DNA of 47,694 nt from contig CACDAL010000008.1 of the NCBI GenBank assembly GCA_902550805.1, forward strand, positions 1 to 47,694. Reading direction: 5' to 3'. Under the pieces are notes generated by a model. It was not told where the DNA came from. It saw only the letters and a list, made by a program, of their open reading frames with translations, and ran no database searches. Positions 8,770 to 35,899 of the stretch are shown here, in pieces (positions within the stretch are counted from its first letter, which is position 1; each line of letters begins with the position of its first letter). This stretch comes from an uncultured Pelagibacteraceae bacterium (GTDB lineage: Bacteria > Pseudomonadota > Alphaproteobacteria > Pelagibacterales > Pelagibacteraceae). A program made the position numbers and the translations under genes.

Positions 8770-10191
8770 ATGAAAAATAATTTGAAAAATACAGATAAAA
8801 TAATTGATAAAAAAATAGATTGGCTAACTGTTCAATCTGATATGAGAGAAAAGTTTGGAAACGATATTTTTGAAAGTTGGCTAAAAAAAATAGAATTAAT
8901 TGATGAATTTAAAAATTATATTTTGATTTCAGTTTCAACGAGATTCATAAGAGATTGGATAACTTCTAGGTATCTAGATCAGATTTTACAAATCATTAAA
9001 GAATATAATAAAGATTTAATAAGAATAGAGTTTGTTATAGAAGATAGTAATTTTAAAAAAAATCATACAAAAGAAAATATAGAACATCAAAGAGAATCTA
9101 AGATCAATAATAACAATGTTTCATTTATAAAAGATTCTTTTTTGCAATATAACAGAATAGATCCTAATAAAAATTTTAATAATTTTATAACTGGAGATAG
9201 CAACAAATTAGCTTTAGAGGCATCAAAAAAAGTTTCAAATGATATTGCACATTACAATCCTTTATATATTTATGGTGGCGTTGGAATGGGCAAAACACAT
9301 TTATTAAATGCTATTGGATTAAATCTAAAAGAAAAAAATAAAGTAATGTTTATTTCCGCAGAAAGATTTATGTACCAGTTTGTTAAATCTATAAAATCAA
9401 ATGAAATGGTAAAATTTAAAGAATACTTTAGAAATACGGACGTATTATTAATTGACGATATACAATTTATGAATGGAAAAGAAGCTATGCAGGAAGAATT
9501 TTTTCATACATTTAATGCGTTAATAGAAAAAAATTCTCAAATAATTGTATCTGCCGATAGACCTCCTAACAAATTATCCAGAATTCAAGAGAGAATTAAG
9601 TCTAGATTCTCAGGAGGCCTAGTTGTTGATATACAAAATCCAGATTATGAGCTTAGATATAAAATTATTACATCGAAAACTGATGAACTAAAATTGTTTT
9701 ATTCAAATCAAATAAATATATCTGAAGAAATACTTGCATTTATAAGTAGTGAAATTAGAACTAGCATAAGAGAATTGGTAGGTGCATTAAATAGAATAGT
9801 ATCCTTTTCAAGAATTTATAATAAAGTTCCTAGCATTTCTGAAGTTAGAGTTATTTTAAAAGATTTACTAAATTTATCAGAAAATAAAGTAACAATAGAT
9901 TCTATACAGACTATTGTTTGCAAATATTTTAAAATAAGCAAAAATGAAATGCTATCTCCAAGAAGATCTAGATATTTAGTTCGGCCTAGACAAACTGCGA
10001 TATATTTGTCTAAAATGTTAACTACAAAATCATTGCCTGAAATTGGAAGGGCTTTTTCAAACAGAGACCACACTACTGTAATTCATTCTGTTAAAACTAT
10101 AGAAAAACTTAGGAAAGAAGACAATGAGTTAAATGTTAGTATAGACAGTTTAAAAAATAAGATTTTATATAAAGAAGAAAATGAAATTTAA
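8770..10191 (+). CDS. dnaA: chromosomal replication initiator DnaA
   Basis: AAA+ ATPase that binds DnaA boxes and opens the origin. Domain I is residues 1-90 (WLTVQSDMREKFG, FESWLKK); a short variable linker runs to about 130; domain III has Walker A GGVGMGKT at 169-176, Walker B LLIDDIQF and the sensor region; the C-terminal DNA-binding domain holds the signature SNRDHTTVIHSVKTI. 473 residues, a normal length. The dnaN ATG overlaps its last codons by 11 bases, so the pair is coupled. Confidence 0.98.
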   Translation: MKNNLKNTDKIIDKKIDWLTVQSDMREKFGNDIFESWLKKIELIDEFKNYILISVSTRFIRDWITSRYLDQILQIIKEYNKDLIRIEFVIEDSNFKKNHTKENIEHQRESKINNNNVSFIKDSFLQYNRIDPNKNFNNFITGDSNKLALEASKKVSNDIAHYNPLYIYGGVGMGKTHLLNAIGLNLKEKNKVMFISAERFMYQFVKSIKSNEMVKFKEYFRNTDVLLIDDIQFMNGKEAMQEEFFHTFNALIEKNSQIIVSADRPPNKLSRIQERIKSRFSGGLVVDIQNPDYELRYKIITSKTDELKLFYSNQINISEEILAFISSEIRTSIRELVGALNRIVSFSRIYNKVPSISEVRVILKDLLNLSENKVTIDSIQTIVCKYFKISKNEMLSPRRSRYLVRPRQTAIYLSKMLTTKSLPEIGRAFSNRDHTTVIHSVKTIEKLRKEDNELNVSIDSLKNKILYKEENEI

Positions 10192-11293
10192 TGTAAACCA
10201 GCAAGACCTTCAAAAATCTTTAAGTTATTGTCAAGGGGTTATTGAAAAAAGAAGTACACTTCCAATATTATCTAACGTTTTGTTAGACGTAAGTAATTCA
10301 AAGTTAACTATAACAGCAACAGATCTTGATTTGATTTTTATTCATAACATTTCTAATGTTGATATATTAGAAGAAGGAAAAACTACCACCTCCTCTTCTA
10401 TAATGTATGATATAGTTAGGAAGTTTTCATCAGGAAATAAAATTAACTTTTCAAATCCAGAAGAAAACAGACTACAACTTGAATCTGAAAAATCTCTTTT
10501 TAATTTAAACTGCATAACTCCATCCGAGTTTCCTTTAACTGAAGAAAATTTTACTGATAATGAATTTTTAATTAACTCAAAAGAATTACTAAAATTATTA
10601 AATAAATGTAAATTTTCAGTTTCAAATGATGAAACAAGACATTATTTAAGTGGTATTTTTTTTCATCAAACTCAAAAAGATGAAAAAATGTTTTTAACAG
10701 CTGCTGCAACTGATAGCCATAGAATGTCTATATCTAAAGTGAGATTACAAAGTGAAATTAAATTTGAACCAATAATTTTACCAAAAAAAACAATTTTTCA
10801 ATTATGTTCTCTCCTAGAAGATTATGAAGGAGATGTAAAAATCTCAAACATTAAATCAAAAATAAAATTTGAATTAAACGATAGTATATTAATATCTAAA
10901 TTGATTGATGGTAAATTTCCTAATTATGTGCAGGTTATACCCAAAGAAAATAAAAAAAAACTGGAAATAGATTTAAAATTATTTTTAAATTCAGTTGATA
11001 GAGTTGCATCAGTTTCTTTGGATAAGAAAGATGGTGTAAAGTTTAGTCTTTCAAAAGATATGTTAAACCTTTCTGTTAATAATAGTAATAGTGGCGATGG
11101 AAAAGAAAGTTTGAACGTTAAGTTTGAACATGAGTTAGATGTTAGTTTTAATTCAAGATATCTTATTGACGTAGCTTCACAATTGAATGGAGAAAGCATT
11201 CAAATTTATTTGAAAGATTCGAGTTCTCCAGCTTTAATTAGAGATCCAGCAGATTTTGATAGTATTTATGTTGTCATGCCAATGAAAGGCTAG
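10181..11293 (+). CDS. dnaN: DNA polymerase III sliding clamp beta subunit
   Basis: Ring-shaped processivity clamp. 370 residues with the beginning MKFNVNQQDLQKSLSYCQGVIEKRSTLPILSNV, the mid-protein region AATDSHRMS, and the C-terminal DSSSPALIRDPADFDSIYVVMPM, where VMPM is the standard peptide-binding end. Start ATG lies inside the end of dnaA. Unlike many bacteria, no recF or gyrB follows; instead the convergent plsC-like gene overlaps its end by 4 bases. Confidence 0.98.
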   Translation: MKFNVNQQDLQKSLSYCQGVIEKRSTLPILSNVLLDVSNSKLTITATDLDLIFIHNISNVDILEEGKTTTSSSIMYDIVRKFSSGNKINFSNPEENRLQLESEKSLFNLNCITPSEFPLTEENFTDNEFLINSKELLKLLNKCKFSVSNDETRHYLSGIFFHQTQKDEKMFLTAAATDSHRMSISKVRLQSEIKFEPIILPKKTIFQLCSLLEDYEGDVKISNIKSKIKFELNDSILISKLIDGKFPNYVQVIPKENKKKLEIDLKLFLNSVDRVASVSLDKKDGVKFSLSKDMLNLSVNNSNSGDGKESLNVKFEHELDVSFNSRYLIDVASQLNGESIQIYLKDSSSPALIRDPADFDSIYVVMPMKG

Positions 11294-31959: not shown

Positions 31960-34900
31960 ATGCATTTAGAATTATTAATTCCAGATATAGGCGATTTTGA
32001 AAAGGTAGAGATAATTGAGATACTGGTTAAAAAAGGTCAAAAAATCAATAAAAATGATCCTGTAGTAACTCTAGAAAGTGATAAATCTAGTGTGGAAGTT
32101 CCTTCAATCTACGAAGGTGAAGTTATAAACATTGGTGTCAAAATAGGTGATAAAGTATCTAAGGGTGATTTAATACTTACCTTATCATCAAATCAAAAGA
32201 GGACTGATGAAAAAATACCTCCGATTACTGAAAAAATTATTCAAGAAGCCGAAAGTTCAATAAAAAAAACCAATAAAAAAATTGAACCACAAAAAACAAG
32301 AAATGAATCTAAAATTGTGGTTAACAACAATGACATTGATCCATTTGAAACTAAAGATTGGTTAGATTCTATTTCTGCCGTTCTTAAAAAAGATGGAAAA
32401 CATAGAGCACAATTTTTAATAAAAGAATTAATTGAACATTCGTATAAAGAGGGTTCAGATTTAATTTTATCTAGAAATACACCTTATATAAATACCATAT
32501 CTCCAGAAGCAGAAACAAATTCTCCAGGAGATCAAAATATAGAACGCAGATTGAGATCTTTAATTAGATGGAATGCAGCGGCTATGGTAGTTAGAGCAAA
32601 TAAAAAGTTTCCAGAATTAGGTGGTCATATTGGAACATTTGCATCAGCAGCTACATTGTATGATGTGGGAATGAATCATTTTTGGAGAGCTAAAAATAAT
32701 AAATTTGGTGGAGACTTAATTTATTTTCAAGGTCATAGCGCACCAGGAATGTATGCAAGAGCGTTTTTAGAAGGAAGATTAACTGAAAAGCAATTAGATA
32801 GTTTTAGACAAGAAGTAAAAAAAGGAGGTCTTTCATCTTATCCTCATCCATGGTTAATGCCTAGTTTTTGGCAATTTCCAACCGTTTCAATGGGCATAGG
32901 ACCAATGCTAGCAATTTATCAAGCCAGGTTCATGAAATATTTAATTAATAGAGGATTAATAAAAGATGAAGGAAGAAAAGTGTGGGCTTTTTTAGGAGAC
33001 GGTGAGATGGATGAACCAGAGTCACTTGGTGCAATTGGATTAGCAGCTAGAGAAAATTTAGATAATTTAATATTTGTAGTTAACTGTAATTTACAGAGAC
33101 TAGATGGACCAGTTAGAGGAAATGGAAAAATAATTCAAGAACTTGAGGGTATTTTTAGAGGTGCAGGATGGAATGTAATAAAGGTTATCTGGGGGTCTTA
33201 TTGGGATTCATTATTGGCAAATGATAAAACTGGTCATCTCATTAAAATAATGAATGAAACTGTAGATGGTGAATATCAAGCATTTAAAGCCAGAAATGGT
33301 TTATACGTTAGGGAAAAATTTTTTGGAAAATATCCAGAAACTCTAGAATTAGTTTCAGCAATGTCCGATAAAGATATTTGGAGATTAAATCGAGGAGGTC
33401 ATGATCCTCACAAGGTTTATGCGGCATATGATAAAGCCGTAAAAAATACTGGCAGTCCAACAGTTATTATAGCCAAAACAATTAAAGGCTATGGAATGGG
33501 AAAAACCGGAGAAAGTGTAAACACTACTCATCAACAAAAGAAATTAGATGTAGATGATCTATTGTATTACAGAGATAGATTTGATGTTCCGCTAAACGAT
33601 GAACAAGTAAAAAATATAGAATATTTTAAACCAGATGAAAATTCTGAAGAAATTAAATATTTAAAACAAAGAAGAATAGAATTGGGTGGCTTTATACCAG
33701 AGAGAACATCTTATTCGAAACCTATTAAAACACCTAATAAAGATATTTTTGATTCCATGAAAATTTCAACTGGTGAAAAAGAAATGTCAACAACTATGGC
33801 TTTGGTTAGAATTTTAACTAATTTATTAAGAGATAAAAATGTTGCACCAAAATTAGTTCCTATTATTCCAGATGAAGCAAGGACTTTTGGAATGGAAGGT
33901 TTTTTTCAAAAAATTGGAATTTATGCGCATGAAGGTCAAAAATATGAACCAGAAGACTCAGCACAACTTTCTTCATATAAAGAAGAAAAAAGTGGACAGG
34001 TTTTAGAGGAAGGAATTACTGAATCAGGATCAATGTCCTCGTGGATAGCCGCAGGAACGTCATATACTAATCACGATATTGAAATGATTCCGATATATTT
34101 ATTTTATTCAATGTTTGGATTTCAAAGGATTGGAGATTTTGCATGGGCTGCAGGTGATAGTCGAACTAGAGGTTTTCTAATAGGTGCAACAGCAGGAAGA
34201 ACAACTTTGGCAGGAGAAGGTTTGCAGCATCAGGACGGCCATAGTCATCTGATTTCATCAACTATACCAAATTGTATTTCCTATGATCCAACTTTTCATT
34301 ATGAATTAGCGGTAATTTTTAGAGAAGGTCTTAAAAGAATGCACGAAAAAAATGAAAATATTTTTTACTATATTACAACTATGAACGAAAATTATCATCA
34401 TCCTGAAATGCCAAAAGATAAAGATTGTGAAGAAGGAATTTTAAAGGGCATATATAAAATTAAAGAATATTCTAAATATAAAAAGACGAAGATTCAGTTA
34501 TTAGGTTCTGGGACTATTCTAAGAGAGATGTTGGTTGCCGCGGAGATTTTGCAGAATGAATATCAAATTGACAGTGAAATATGGAGCGTAACTAGCTTTA
34601 ATGAATTAAGAAGAGATGGACTAGAGGTCGAAAGATATAACTTATTAAATCCAACAAAGGAAAAAAGAATTACATATCTTGAAAAATGTTTAGGAAAAAC
34701 TGAAGGACCTATTCTGGCAGCATCAGACTATATGAGAATTAATTCTGATCAAATTAGACCTTATACATCTAAGAGCTTTTATTCATTAGGTACTGACGGC
34801 TATGGAAGAAGCGATACAAGAAAAAATTTAAGAAGATTTTTTGAAGTAGATAAAGAACATATAGTTGCATATGGTCTAAGTGTTTTAGCTAATGAGCAAT

Positions 34901-34980
34901 TAATAGCATCAAAATATGCAGAAGAAGCAATAAAAAAATATAACATAGATAAAAATAAACCAATTCCAATAAAATTATAA
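31960..34980 (+). CDS. aceE: pyruvate dehydrogenase E1 (AceE type) with fused N-terminal lipoyl domain
   Basis: Thiamine-diphosphate decarboxylase, homodimeric type. 1006 residues instead of about 885. Residues 1-76 form a complete biotin/lipoyl domain (IPDIGDFEKVEIIEILVKKG, VTLESDKSSVEVPS) with lipoyl-lysine Lys42 in the DK turn; a Lys/Glu/Asn-rich linker (77-125) leads to E1 proper, starting NDIDPFETKDWLDSISAVLK and closely following AceE: TFASAATLYDVGMNHFW, TPP motif GDGEMDE (346-352) and NCN (375-377), FGMEGFFQKIGIYA, EGLQHQDGHSHL. The downstream E2 lacks a lipoyl domain, so the swinging arm appears to have moved to E1. Leading gene of the operon; the E2 ATG is 1 base after its stop. No E3 in the window. 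Confidence 0.96.
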   Translation: MHLELLIPDIGDFEKVEIIEILVKKGQKINKNDPVVTLESDKSSVEVPSIYEGEVINIGVKIGDKVSKGDLILTLSSNQKRTDEKIPPITEKIIQEAESSIKKTNKKIEPQKTRNESKIVVNNNDIDPFETKDWLDSISAVLKKDGKHRAQFLIKELIEHSYKEGSDLILSRNTPYINTISPEAETNSPGDQNIERRLRSLIRWNAAAMVVRANKKFPELGGHIGTFASAATLYDVGMNHFWRAKNNKFGGDLIYFQGHSAPGMYARAFLEGRLTEKQLDSFRQEVKKGGLSSYPHPWLMPSFWQFPTVSMGIGPMLAIYQARFMKYLINRGLIKDEGRKVWAFLGDGEMDEPESLGAIGLAARENLDNLIFVVNCNLQRLDGPVRGNGKIIQELEGIFRGAGWNVIKVIWGSYWDSLLANDKTGHLIKIMNETVDGEYQAFKARNGLYVREKFFGKYPETLELVSAMSDKDIWRLNRGGHDPHKVYAAYDKAVKNTGSPTVIIAKTIKGYGMGKTGESVNTTHQQKKLDVDDLLYYRDRFDVPLNDEQVKNIEYFKPDENSEEIKYLKQRRIELGGFIPERTSYSKPIKTPNKDIFDSMKISTGEKEMSTTMALVRILTNLLRDKNVAPKLVPIIPDEARTFGMEGFFQKIGIYAHEGQKYEPEDSAQLSSYKEEKSGQVLEEGITESGSMSSWIAAGTSYTNHDIEMIPIYLFYSMFGFQRIGDFAWAAGDSRTRGFLIGATAGRTTLAGEGLQHQDGHSHLISSTIPNCISYDPTFHYELAVIFREGLKRMHEKNENIFYYITTMNENYHHPEMPKDKDCEEGILKGIYKIKEYSKYKKTKIQLLGSGTILREMLVAAEILQNEYQIDSEIWSVTSFNELRRDGLEVERYNLLNPTKEKRITYLEKCLGKTEGPILAASDYMRINSDQIRPYTSKSFYSLGTDGYGRSDTRKNLRRFFEVDKEHIVAYGLSVLANEQLIASKYAEEAIKKYNIDKNKPIPIKL

Positions 34981-34981
34981 A

Positions 34982-35899
34982 ATGAATGATACTAAACAAA
35001 AAAATAATCAGAATGTTTTAGCCAGTCCCAAAGCTAGAAAGTTTGCTAGGGAATTAGGTGTCGATGTTAATGATGTTGTTGGTAGCGAAAGACTGGGACG
35101 GGTAATTGAAGAAGATATAAAAGAATTTGTTTCTTCAAAAATAAATAATAAAGAAGATGTTAAAATTAATAATGAATATGAACATTCAGAATTTGGAGAA
35201 GTAGAAATTAAAGAAATAACAAGAATAAAAAAAATTGCCGCACCACATTTGGTCAATTCATGGAAAAACATTCCTCATGTAACCAACCATGATGAAGCTG
35301 ATATTACCGAGATGGAAGAATTTAGAAACTCTTTAACTGATATCTATACTGGAGAAAAAAAAAAAATTACACCTCTAGCTTTTATAATAAAAGCAGTTGT
35401 TTCTTCTTTAAAAAAATTTCCTAGTTTCAATTCTTCTATAGACGATATTGAAAATGGAAAAATTACTTTAAAAAAATATTTTCATATTGGTATAGCTGTA
35501 GATACACCTCATGGTTTAATGGTTCCTAAAATTAGAGATGTAGATCAAAAAAATATAAATCAATTAAGCTACGAATTAAAAAAAGTGAGTAAAGATTGTA
35601 GAAATTTGAAAATAGATAAAAAAGAATTTTTTGGTGGATCTATCACAATAACTAGCTTAGGCGGAATAGGAGGTTCTTTTTTTACACCAATTATAAATTA
35701 TCCTGAAGTAGCAATATTGGGTATTGGAAGATCATATAAGAAACAATTATTTATAAATGAAAAATTTGTAAATCGTACTGTGTTGCCCCTTTCTTTATCT
35801 TATGATCATAGAATTATAGATGGTGCTGAAGCTGCTAAATTTAATAATGATTTAAAAGATAATCTTGGAAGCAATTTTGCTTATAAATTAGCAATTTAA
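34982..35899 (+). CDS. aceF: pyruvate dehydrogenase E2 (dihydrolipoyl acetyltransferase) lacking a lipoyl domain
   Basis: Core acetyltransferase of the complex, 305 residues, compared with 400 or more for E2 with one lipoyl domain. The N-terminus is directly the peripheral-subunit-binding domain (LASPKARKFARELGVDVNDV, then GSERLGRVIEEDIKEF, about residues 13-50), followed by a short linker and the catalytic domain (about 70-305) with VTNHDEADITEMEEFR, HIGIAVDTPHGLMVPKI, SITITSLGGIGGSFFTPIIN and the active-site DHRIIDG, His276 and Asp280. No DK lipoyl motif exists anywhere upstream of the binding domain in this frame. The lysine-bearing domain is instead fused to the E1 encoded just upstream. 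Confidence 0.95.
   Translation: MNDTKQKNNQNVLASPKARKFARELGVDVNDVVGSERLGRVIEEDIKEFVSSKINNKEDVKINNEYEHSEFGEVEIKEITRIKKIAAPHLVNSWKNIPHVTNHDEADITEMEEFRNSLTDIYTGEKKKITPLAFIIKAVVSSLKKFPSFNSSIDDIENGKITLKKYFHIGIAVDTPHGLMVPKIRDVDQKNINQLSYELKKVSKDCRNLKIDKKEFFGGSITITSLGGIGGSFFTPIINYPEVAILGIGRSYKKQLFINEKFVNRTVLPLSLSYDHRIIDGAEAAKFNNDLKDNLGSNFAYKLAI

Follow-up and report, generated by a model that had tools for sequence, protein, structure and literature searches.

In textbook 2-oxoacid dehydrogenase complexes, the lipoyl swinging arm is carried by E2, the acyltransferase, which ties the number of arms to the E2 core. In Alphaproteobacteria, the E1-beta subunit (PdhB of Zymomonas and Sinorhizobium) reportedly bears an N-terminal lipoyl domain (LD). 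There, E1 is a heterotetramer to which this subunit contributes the beta chain, and the partner E2 retains an LD. According to the accessible parts of two publications (PMC8421416, PMC6270654), one to three LDs on E2 are the rule, and the gammaproteobacterial pyruvate dehydrogenase complex (PDH) of E. coli and Azotobacter, built from AceE, AceF and Lpd, belongs here (PMC8421416, in the part accessible). In the actinobacterial hybrid of PDH and 2-oxoglutarate dehydrogenase (ODH), an E2 catalytic domain without an LD of its own is fused to E1o in OdhA (KGD), and the lipoyl groups are lent by AceF, as far as the accessible sections of PMC10415282 and PMC10581250 go. An E3 with an N-terminal LD (as in 5u25) is a further variant. 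The aceEF genes of SAR11 are treated in PMC10030771, without domain detail in the accessible part. Here we analyse a PDH locus of an uncultured Pelagibacteraceae bacterium (SAR11), located in a stretch of 47,694 nucleotides of contig CACDAL010000008.1 (assembly GCA_902550805.1, positions 1 to 47,694, forward strand). This whole stretch is called the window in the following. Its E1 is an AceE-type enzyme with an N-terminal LD, and the E2 encoded next to it has none. We propose, with a probability of roughly 85%, that the two genes encode a working PDH with the lipoyl swinging arm on E1, that the E1 LD arose as an early copy of an E2 LD, that E2 copies were then lost repeatedly, and that E1 would hold the sole PDH arm in this organism. 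The features of the locus are as follows.

31960..34980, + strand: E1, AceE-type pyruvate dehydrogenase with N-terminal LD, 1006 amino acids (TIGR00759, PF17831, PF22613, PF00456, PF00364)
31960..32187, + strand: E1 LD, residues 1-76, with the candidate lipoyl-lysine Lys42 at 32083-32085 in DKSSVEV (PF00364, 61.1 bits; AlphaFold2 strands)
32188..32328, + strand: flexible linker of E1, residues 77-123, 47 residues (low AlphaFold2 confidence, pLDDT)
32329..34977, + strand: AceE catalytic body, E1 residues 124-1006 (phmmer match to 1l8a; invariant H524, E688 and H757)
34982..35899, + strand: E2, dihydrolipoyl acetyltransferase without LD, 305 amino acids (PF02817 and PF00198 only)
35015..35119, + strand: peripheral subunit-binding domain (PSBD) of E2, residues 12-46 (PF02817, 46.8 bits)
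35201..35866, + strand: E2 catalytic domain, residues 74-295, with DHRIIDG at 275-281 (PF00198, 259.1 bits)
35825..35896, + strand: C-terminal tail of E2 past DHRIIDG, residues 282-305, with Phe299 (tail comparison; two residues longer than most non-SAR11 tails examined)

E1 is encoded by a single open reading frame (ORF) without interruption, and LD and AceE body share this frame. In profile searches, TIGR00759 covered residues 123-1004, and thus the whole of AceE, with 1416.9 bits (cut-off 859.9), while the competing model TIGR03186 stayed under its cut-off of 1408.3 with 1264.7 bits. PF00364 (Biotin_lipoyl) matched residues 5-75 with 61.1 bits, well above the cut-off of 22.1. The first-pass annotation, made from the sequence alone, had described a full LD with Lys42 at residues 1-76 of an AceE-type E1, and the two profile matches on one ORF bear this out. 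Lys42 sits within ESDKSSVEVPS. In the AlphaFold2 model of E1 (mean pLDDT 78.6), the LD consists of strands 2-6, 16-21, 34-39, 44-48, 53-58 and 71-76, and Lys42 lies in the turn between the predicted strands 34-39 and 44-48. The linker that follows stayed below a pLDDT of 50 at residues 79-87 and 100-122; residues 88-102 were predicted as a helix. From residue 124 on, the protein is a conventional AceE: residues 124-1003 aligned with 6-883 of E. coli E1 (1l8a, phmmer), and the identity of the core to E. coli E1 structures was 54-56% over aligned columns. H524, E688 and H757 aligned with H407, E571 and H640, which we take to be the catalytic residues of E. coli E1, and were invariant in 35 sequences. 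The closest fold to the E1 model was 4qoy, an entry for an E1-acetyltransferase subcomplex, and residues 124-165 matched chain C of 9h1n, a structure that combines an E1 peptide with a fragment of the E2 binding domain. NF008854, the model for the LD-bearing alphaproteobacterial E1-beta, aligned with E1 residues 2-124 only (model positions 2-129; 20.1 bits against a cut-off of 454). The two proteins thus share an N-terminal LD on an E1 subunit. However, the E1-beta body of the heterotetrameric enzyme lies outside the match, the window E1 is of the AceE type, and the window E2 lacks an LD.

The E2 ORF starts one base past the stop codon of E1. A profile search of the 305-residue product returned PF02817 and PF00198 and gave no lipoyl match, including the stretch ahead of the PSBD. 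The earlier claim that E2 starts at its E3/E1-binding domain without a lipoyl motif was therefore correct, and the domain layout of both proteins is established at the level of Pfam families (PF00364, PF02817, PF00198), with the LD on E1 and none on E2. TIGR01348 (PDHac_trf_long) remained at 325.2 bits, below its cut-off of 552.1, and only positions 275-580 of its 587 took part in the match. Compared with a canonical long E2p, the window E2 has the PSBD and the catalytic domain, and is short of the N-terminal LD and of the score. The PSBD region matched E2 fragments in two structures, 9h1n over residues 7-58 and 4qoy over residues 13-54. The AlphaFold2 model of the catalytic core superimposed on the E2p cores of A. 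vinelandii and E. coli with Z scores of about 27 and a root-mean-square deviation of 2.0, and H276 was invariant in 30 sequences. Over aligned columns, SAR11 E2p sequences were 45-46% identical to that of E. coli and about 30% to that of C. glutamicum.

To place the arrangement within SAR11, we searched genomes at family and order level with the E1. The contigs holding the nearest matches were labelled Pelagibacteraceae. In the family, 195 of 197 genomes matched at an E-value of 0.001, several of them weakly, and among the matches listed all but 12 began at query residues 1-8, with the LD included. In the order, 179 of 247 genomes matched at 1e-100, and all matches listed fell into the same family. 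Loci with one E1 and one E2 were collected from genome searches, GTDB contigs and hand-picked cases, giving 148 SAR11 loci; one further locus with a cut E2 (L198) was left out. Some genomes may have entered twice, by different routes. The E2 carried no LD in 56 loci, one in 85 and two in seven; the hand-picked loci were enriched for LD-less E2s, so that 56/148 is not a prevalence. On the E1 side, the 5' end was cut by the contig in eight loci. In 137 of the 140 loci with an uncut start, the LD was in frame with E1. The three exceptions (L128, L138, L139) showed an LD-encoding ORF directly upstream in a different frame and A-runs or Ns in the linker; these breaks are probably sequencing errors. 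Since the in-frame fusion recurs across the family, it is neither a frame error, a possibility the first-pass annotation had considered, nor an assembly fusion confined to a single genome, and we rejected the artefact explanation. Five loci (L173, L174, L177, L178, L180) had two tandem N-terminal LDs on E1, both with the lysine, and all others had one.

Outside SAR11, none of the E1s in 41 AceE loci carried an LD. An LD was present on E2 in all 36 of these loci with a recognised E2; in the remaining five, no E2 was recognised. Further 5' regions of non-SAR11 E1 genes, picked mainly for long reading frames, likewise lacked an LD (0/19), and we thus discarded the idea that an E1 LD is a general trait of AceE. 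In broader searches, AceE turned up in 161 of 398 genomes of the phylum (two of them SAR11) and in 11 of 385 of the class (five of them SAR11). Apart from the 19 just mentioned, the non-SAR11 hits were judged by the start of the match only, for the phylum among the matches listed. The gammaproteobacterial complex resembles the window PDH in its AceE-type E1, the class of the E2 catalytic domain, the PSBD and the shared E3, but differs in the place of the LD, which is found there on E2 and here on E1 only. Many non-SAR11 loci contained separate LD-bearing ORFs of 550-620 residues downstream of E2, which likely encode E3 with an N-terminal LD. Such an E3 is comparable in that a partner enzyme of E2 has an LD; unlike in the window, the partner is E3 and the E2 keeps an LD of its own. 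A second AceE without LD, 54% identical to the window E1, was seen in one genome (G009, L217:1922-4597, - strand); the stretch fetched there contains no E2.

If E1 carries the sole PDH arm, no other LD-bearing PDH component should occur in the genome. The assembly comprises 1.08 Mb and is 80% complete. PF00364 matched four of its proteins: SucB, an AccB-like protein of 118 residues, a BCCP-like protein of 72 residues that adjoins a urea-amidolyase-like gene, and the window E1. The names SucA, SucB, AccB-like and BCCP-like rest on the sequences and the neighbouring genes rather than on a family search. PF00198 was confined to two ORFs (426 and 308 residues), SucB and the window E2, and PF02852 revealed one E3, beside sucAB. 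Hence, neither a further PDH-type E2 nor a further PDH-type lipoyl carrier was found with PF00364 and PF00198 in this 80%-complete genome. As a gene may hide in the missing part, we examined nine relatives that are 94-99% complete and likewise have an LD-less E2 (G051, G093, G127, G152, G166, G083, G105, G190, G001). With frames identified by ORF size and place, PF00364 was restricted to those of SucB size (436-454 residues), AccB size (119-151) and E1 (1018-1034), except for one additional weak and partial match of 22 bits in G127. By comparison, four relatives with LD-bearing E2 (G003, G017, G026, G043) showed an additional E2 frame of 428-447 residues at the E1 locus, and G026 and G043 one weak partial match each. 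All 14 genomes, the window's and the 13 relatives, encoded exactly two E2 catalytic domains. An LD-bearing PDH E2 elsewhere, a possibility raised by the first-pass annotation, was therefore dismissed for the window's genome and the nine near-complete relatives. LipB was present in 13 of the 14 genomes, including the window's. A pair of adjacent genes for thiamine-diphosphate enzymes resembling E1-beta and E1-alpha by eye (303 and 278 residues) was seen on contig C1 of the window's genome (L011:1093-2813, - strand); it adjoins a cupin-like gene, and no E2 lies beside it in the fetched stretch.

The remaining candidate donor is SucB, the only other lipoyl carrier of a 2-oxoacid dehydrogenase found in the genome. 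Its LD might serve the LD-less PDH E2 in a mixed complex, the E1 LD being auxiliary, which would reverse the roles seen in the Corynebacterium PDH-ODH hybrid. The single E3 gene adjoins sucAB, in keeping with this idea, and Actinobacteria set a precedent: their OdhA relies on the lipoyl groups of AceF (PMC10415282, PMC10581250, parts accessible). In that hybrid as in the window, an E2 catalytic domain lacks an LD and the LD is placed elsewhere. However, the lender in the hybrid is AceF, itself an E2, and the LD-less domain there is fused to E1o, whereas in the window the LD sits on E1p of the same complex and E1 is separate from E2. An OdhA-type E2o-E1o fusion was not seen in the window's genome, where SucA and SucB occupy separate frames and PF00198 the two ORFs mentioned. 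Moreover, a donor role of SucB would leave unexplained why the E1 LD keeps its lysine in 52/52 loci with LD-less E2. In an LD tree, the E1 LD grouped with PDH LDs while SucB stood outside on a long branch, and the strongest lipoyl-domain matches of the E1 LD in the PDB were PDH components. We thus consider a mixed complex very unlikely.

The lipoyl lysine was conserved in 143/143 E1 LDs of SAR11: besides the 52 from loci with LD-less E2, these comprised 76/76 from loci with one LD each on E1 and E2 and 15/15 from the remaining classes. First or sole LDs of E2 kept it as well (92/92), whereas the second LD of two-LD E2s had Glu or Asn instead in all seven cases (0/7 with lysine) and could not be lipoylated, judging by its sequence. 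The position can therefore decay, yet on E1 it never does. The two-LD E2s (L165, L166, L167, L178, L179, L183, L199) belong to an early-branching part of the Pelagibacteraceae. The constancy of the E1 lysine also bears on the notion that the E1 LD is vestigial or regulatory and that PDH is inactive, or merely a pyruvate decarboxylase, in these strains. Three genomes of the same genus (G097, G154, G178; 95-97% complete) had weak E1 matches only and no PDH E2 match at 1e-60. They apparently lack this PDH, which may thus be dispensable in some SAR11. On the other hand, H524, E688 and H757 of E1 and H276 of E2 were invariant, and E1 was up to 87% identical in genomes of other species, unlike a decaying gene. 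Together with the constant LD lysine, these data make a vestigial domain or an inactive enzyme highly improbable. Longer linkers might be expected to offset the loss of the E2 arm. We dropped this idea, as it amounted to a trend to which the window is an exception: the median E1 linker was 64 residues in loci with LD-less E2 against 54 in loci with one LD each, the window has 47, and a tree-aware test returned median p values of 0.125 to 0.5, depending on the threshold, and thus no significance.

To reconstruct the history of the LDs, IQ-TREE phylogenies were calculated from 63 rows (58 SAR11, five outgroup) chosen by state and clade. On the E2-core tree, presence and absence of the E2 LD required eight changes, all eight forced by supported branches; the E1-core tree required seven, six of them forced. 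A FastTree phylogeny of 144 SAR11 and 11 outgroup rows, in which four pairs identical in E1 core and E2 were merged, gave eight changes, or nine losses if only losses were permitted. A single origin of LD-less E2 was rejected, as it appeared in 0% of 200 E2-core bootstrap trees, and the approximately unbiased (AU) test against one clade of LD-less E2s gave p 3.4e-32. The sequences thus show repeated switching of the E2 LD. In the LD tree, the E1 and E2 LDs of SAR11 formed one group (95/90) relative to the LDs of gamma- and betaproteobacterial E2 and E3 included, which makes a pelagibacteral E2 LD the most likely source of the E1 LD; order and direction within this group stay unsettled by the 72-column tree. 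We infer that E1 acquired its copy no later than the base of the Pelagibacteraceae. With an arm of its own on E1, the E2 arm would have become dispensable and would have been lost several times independently, the window organism belonging to one such lineage. Alternatively, the E2 LD was lost once or a few times early and regained in several lineages, for instance through recombination, with E1 or other strains as the source. The seven to eight parsimony changes carry no direction, and E1 and E2 LDs intermix in parts of the LD tree, where the supported pair of E1 and E2 LDs in L173 (97/89) suggests conversion. Regain, however, would require repeated precise insertion at one place. In addition, wherever an E2 was recognised in the loci outside SAR11 (36 of them), it carried an LD, and the earliest-branching SAR11 group has one or two LDs on E2. 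These observations favour loss, and we regard regain as unlikely.

How such a complex would operate can be outlined from the domain order. E. coli E1 docks on the PSBD of E2 via its N-terminal region. We infer an equivalent docking here, with the region of E1 just past the linker bound to the PSBD at the N-terminus of E2; these two segments matched the two partners of 9h1n. Because the linker lies directly ahead of this presumed docking region, the arm would be placed just outside it, and the 47 residues of the linker, when extended, could bridge well over 100 A. E1 would decarboxylate pyruvate on thiamine diphosphate and reductively acetylate lipoyl-Lys42 of its own N-terminal LD or that of a neighbouring E1. 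The acetylated arm would then reach the catalytic trimer of E2, where CoA takes the acetyl group, and the single shared E3, also held by the binding domains of E2, would reoxidise the arm.

The first-pass annotation had interpreted the locus as a relocation of the arm to E1. As far as the location is concerned, this view is supported by the search of near-complete relatives, in which no further PDH-type carrier was found, by the constant lysine and by the switching of the E2 LD while the E1 LD stays. It was not one relocation, though, since the E1 LD occurs across the Pelagibacteraceae sampled, most sampled relatives are armed on both proteins, and LD-less E2s emerged several times. Some results weigh against the arm on E1 as the sole PDH arm, or against the proposed history. 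With 80% completeness, there is room for a missed gene in the window's genome, and SucB could in principle supply its LD. LipB gave no match in G152, a relative that is 96% complete and has an LD-less E2, and the linker lengths offer no significant support. The LD tree has many open forks and an unsettled bootstrap, and losses cannot be told from regains by counting parsimony changes. Finally, the window E2 grouped with the LD-bearing E2s of L187 and L015 (97/90, E2 core; likewise in the joint tree), and the window E1 with the LD-less-E2 clade of L013, L014, L016 and L128 (91/92, E1 core). Due to this conflict, the loss of the E2 LD in the window may be its own or shared with that clade.

The C-terminus of E2 raised a further question, that of core size. 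In Actinobacteria, a Phe-containing three-residue C-terminal insertion holds E2p as trimers and has been proposed as a class signature, according to the accessible parts of PMC10415282 and PMC10581250. All SAR11 E2 tails past DHRxxxG (146/146) comprised 24-25 residues with F[AG] within the last nine, the commonest end being LGKNFAYKLAV. Non-SAR11 tails had 22 residues in 29 of 34 cases and 25-26 residues without that Phe in the other five, two additional non-SAR11 E2s that failed the tail motif being excluded. The SAR11 tails are thus two residues longer than the 22-residue type (three in four cases). The window tail aligned with NFA..LA of Corynebacterium mustelae AceF (6zzm) and is one residue shorter than the latter; a search with a 25-residue E2 tail as query yielded no relevant match. 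The SAR11 E2p, otherwise closer to that of E. coli, may have reached the same reduced trimer core as in Actinobacteria. Structural proof of a trimer-only E2 could not be derived from the AlphaFold2 model, whose alignment reached up to the C-terminus with cubic as well as trimeric E2s, and this line was dropped. Tentatively, and with less confidence than we place in the arm on E1, we picture the SAR11 PDH as inside-out and compact: armless E2 trimers, held by a Phe-containing C-terminal insertion acquired independently of Actinobacteria, might act as docking hub and acetyl acceptor, and E1 dimers would bring the sole lipoyl arms.

Elsewhere in the window, ORFs resembling dnaA and dnaN by eye were noted at 8770-11293, so that a replication origin may lie nearby.

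In the open-access literature searched (titles and abstract starts), we found no description of an LD on AceE or of an LD-less E2p in SAR11, nor, in the open-access literature, of an AceE-type E1 as the sole carrier of the PDH arm. The earlier statement that the arrangement is undescribed in this clade holds to that extent, and has to be qualified by the LD mentioned above for the alphaproteobacterial E1-beta. E1-borne LDs and LD-less E2 domains are each known separately; their combination seems new. Should the compact reading be true, there would be no 24-mer E2 core with radiating arms, and the number of arms would be set by E1 rather than by E2. Within SAR11, close relatives form a natural series: some carry arms on E1 as well as E2, some on E1 alone, and some have two LDs on either protein. 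This makes it testable whether active-site coupling needs an arm tethered to the E2 core or one placed anywhere in the complex. A central metabolic machine may thus work with its parts rearranged.

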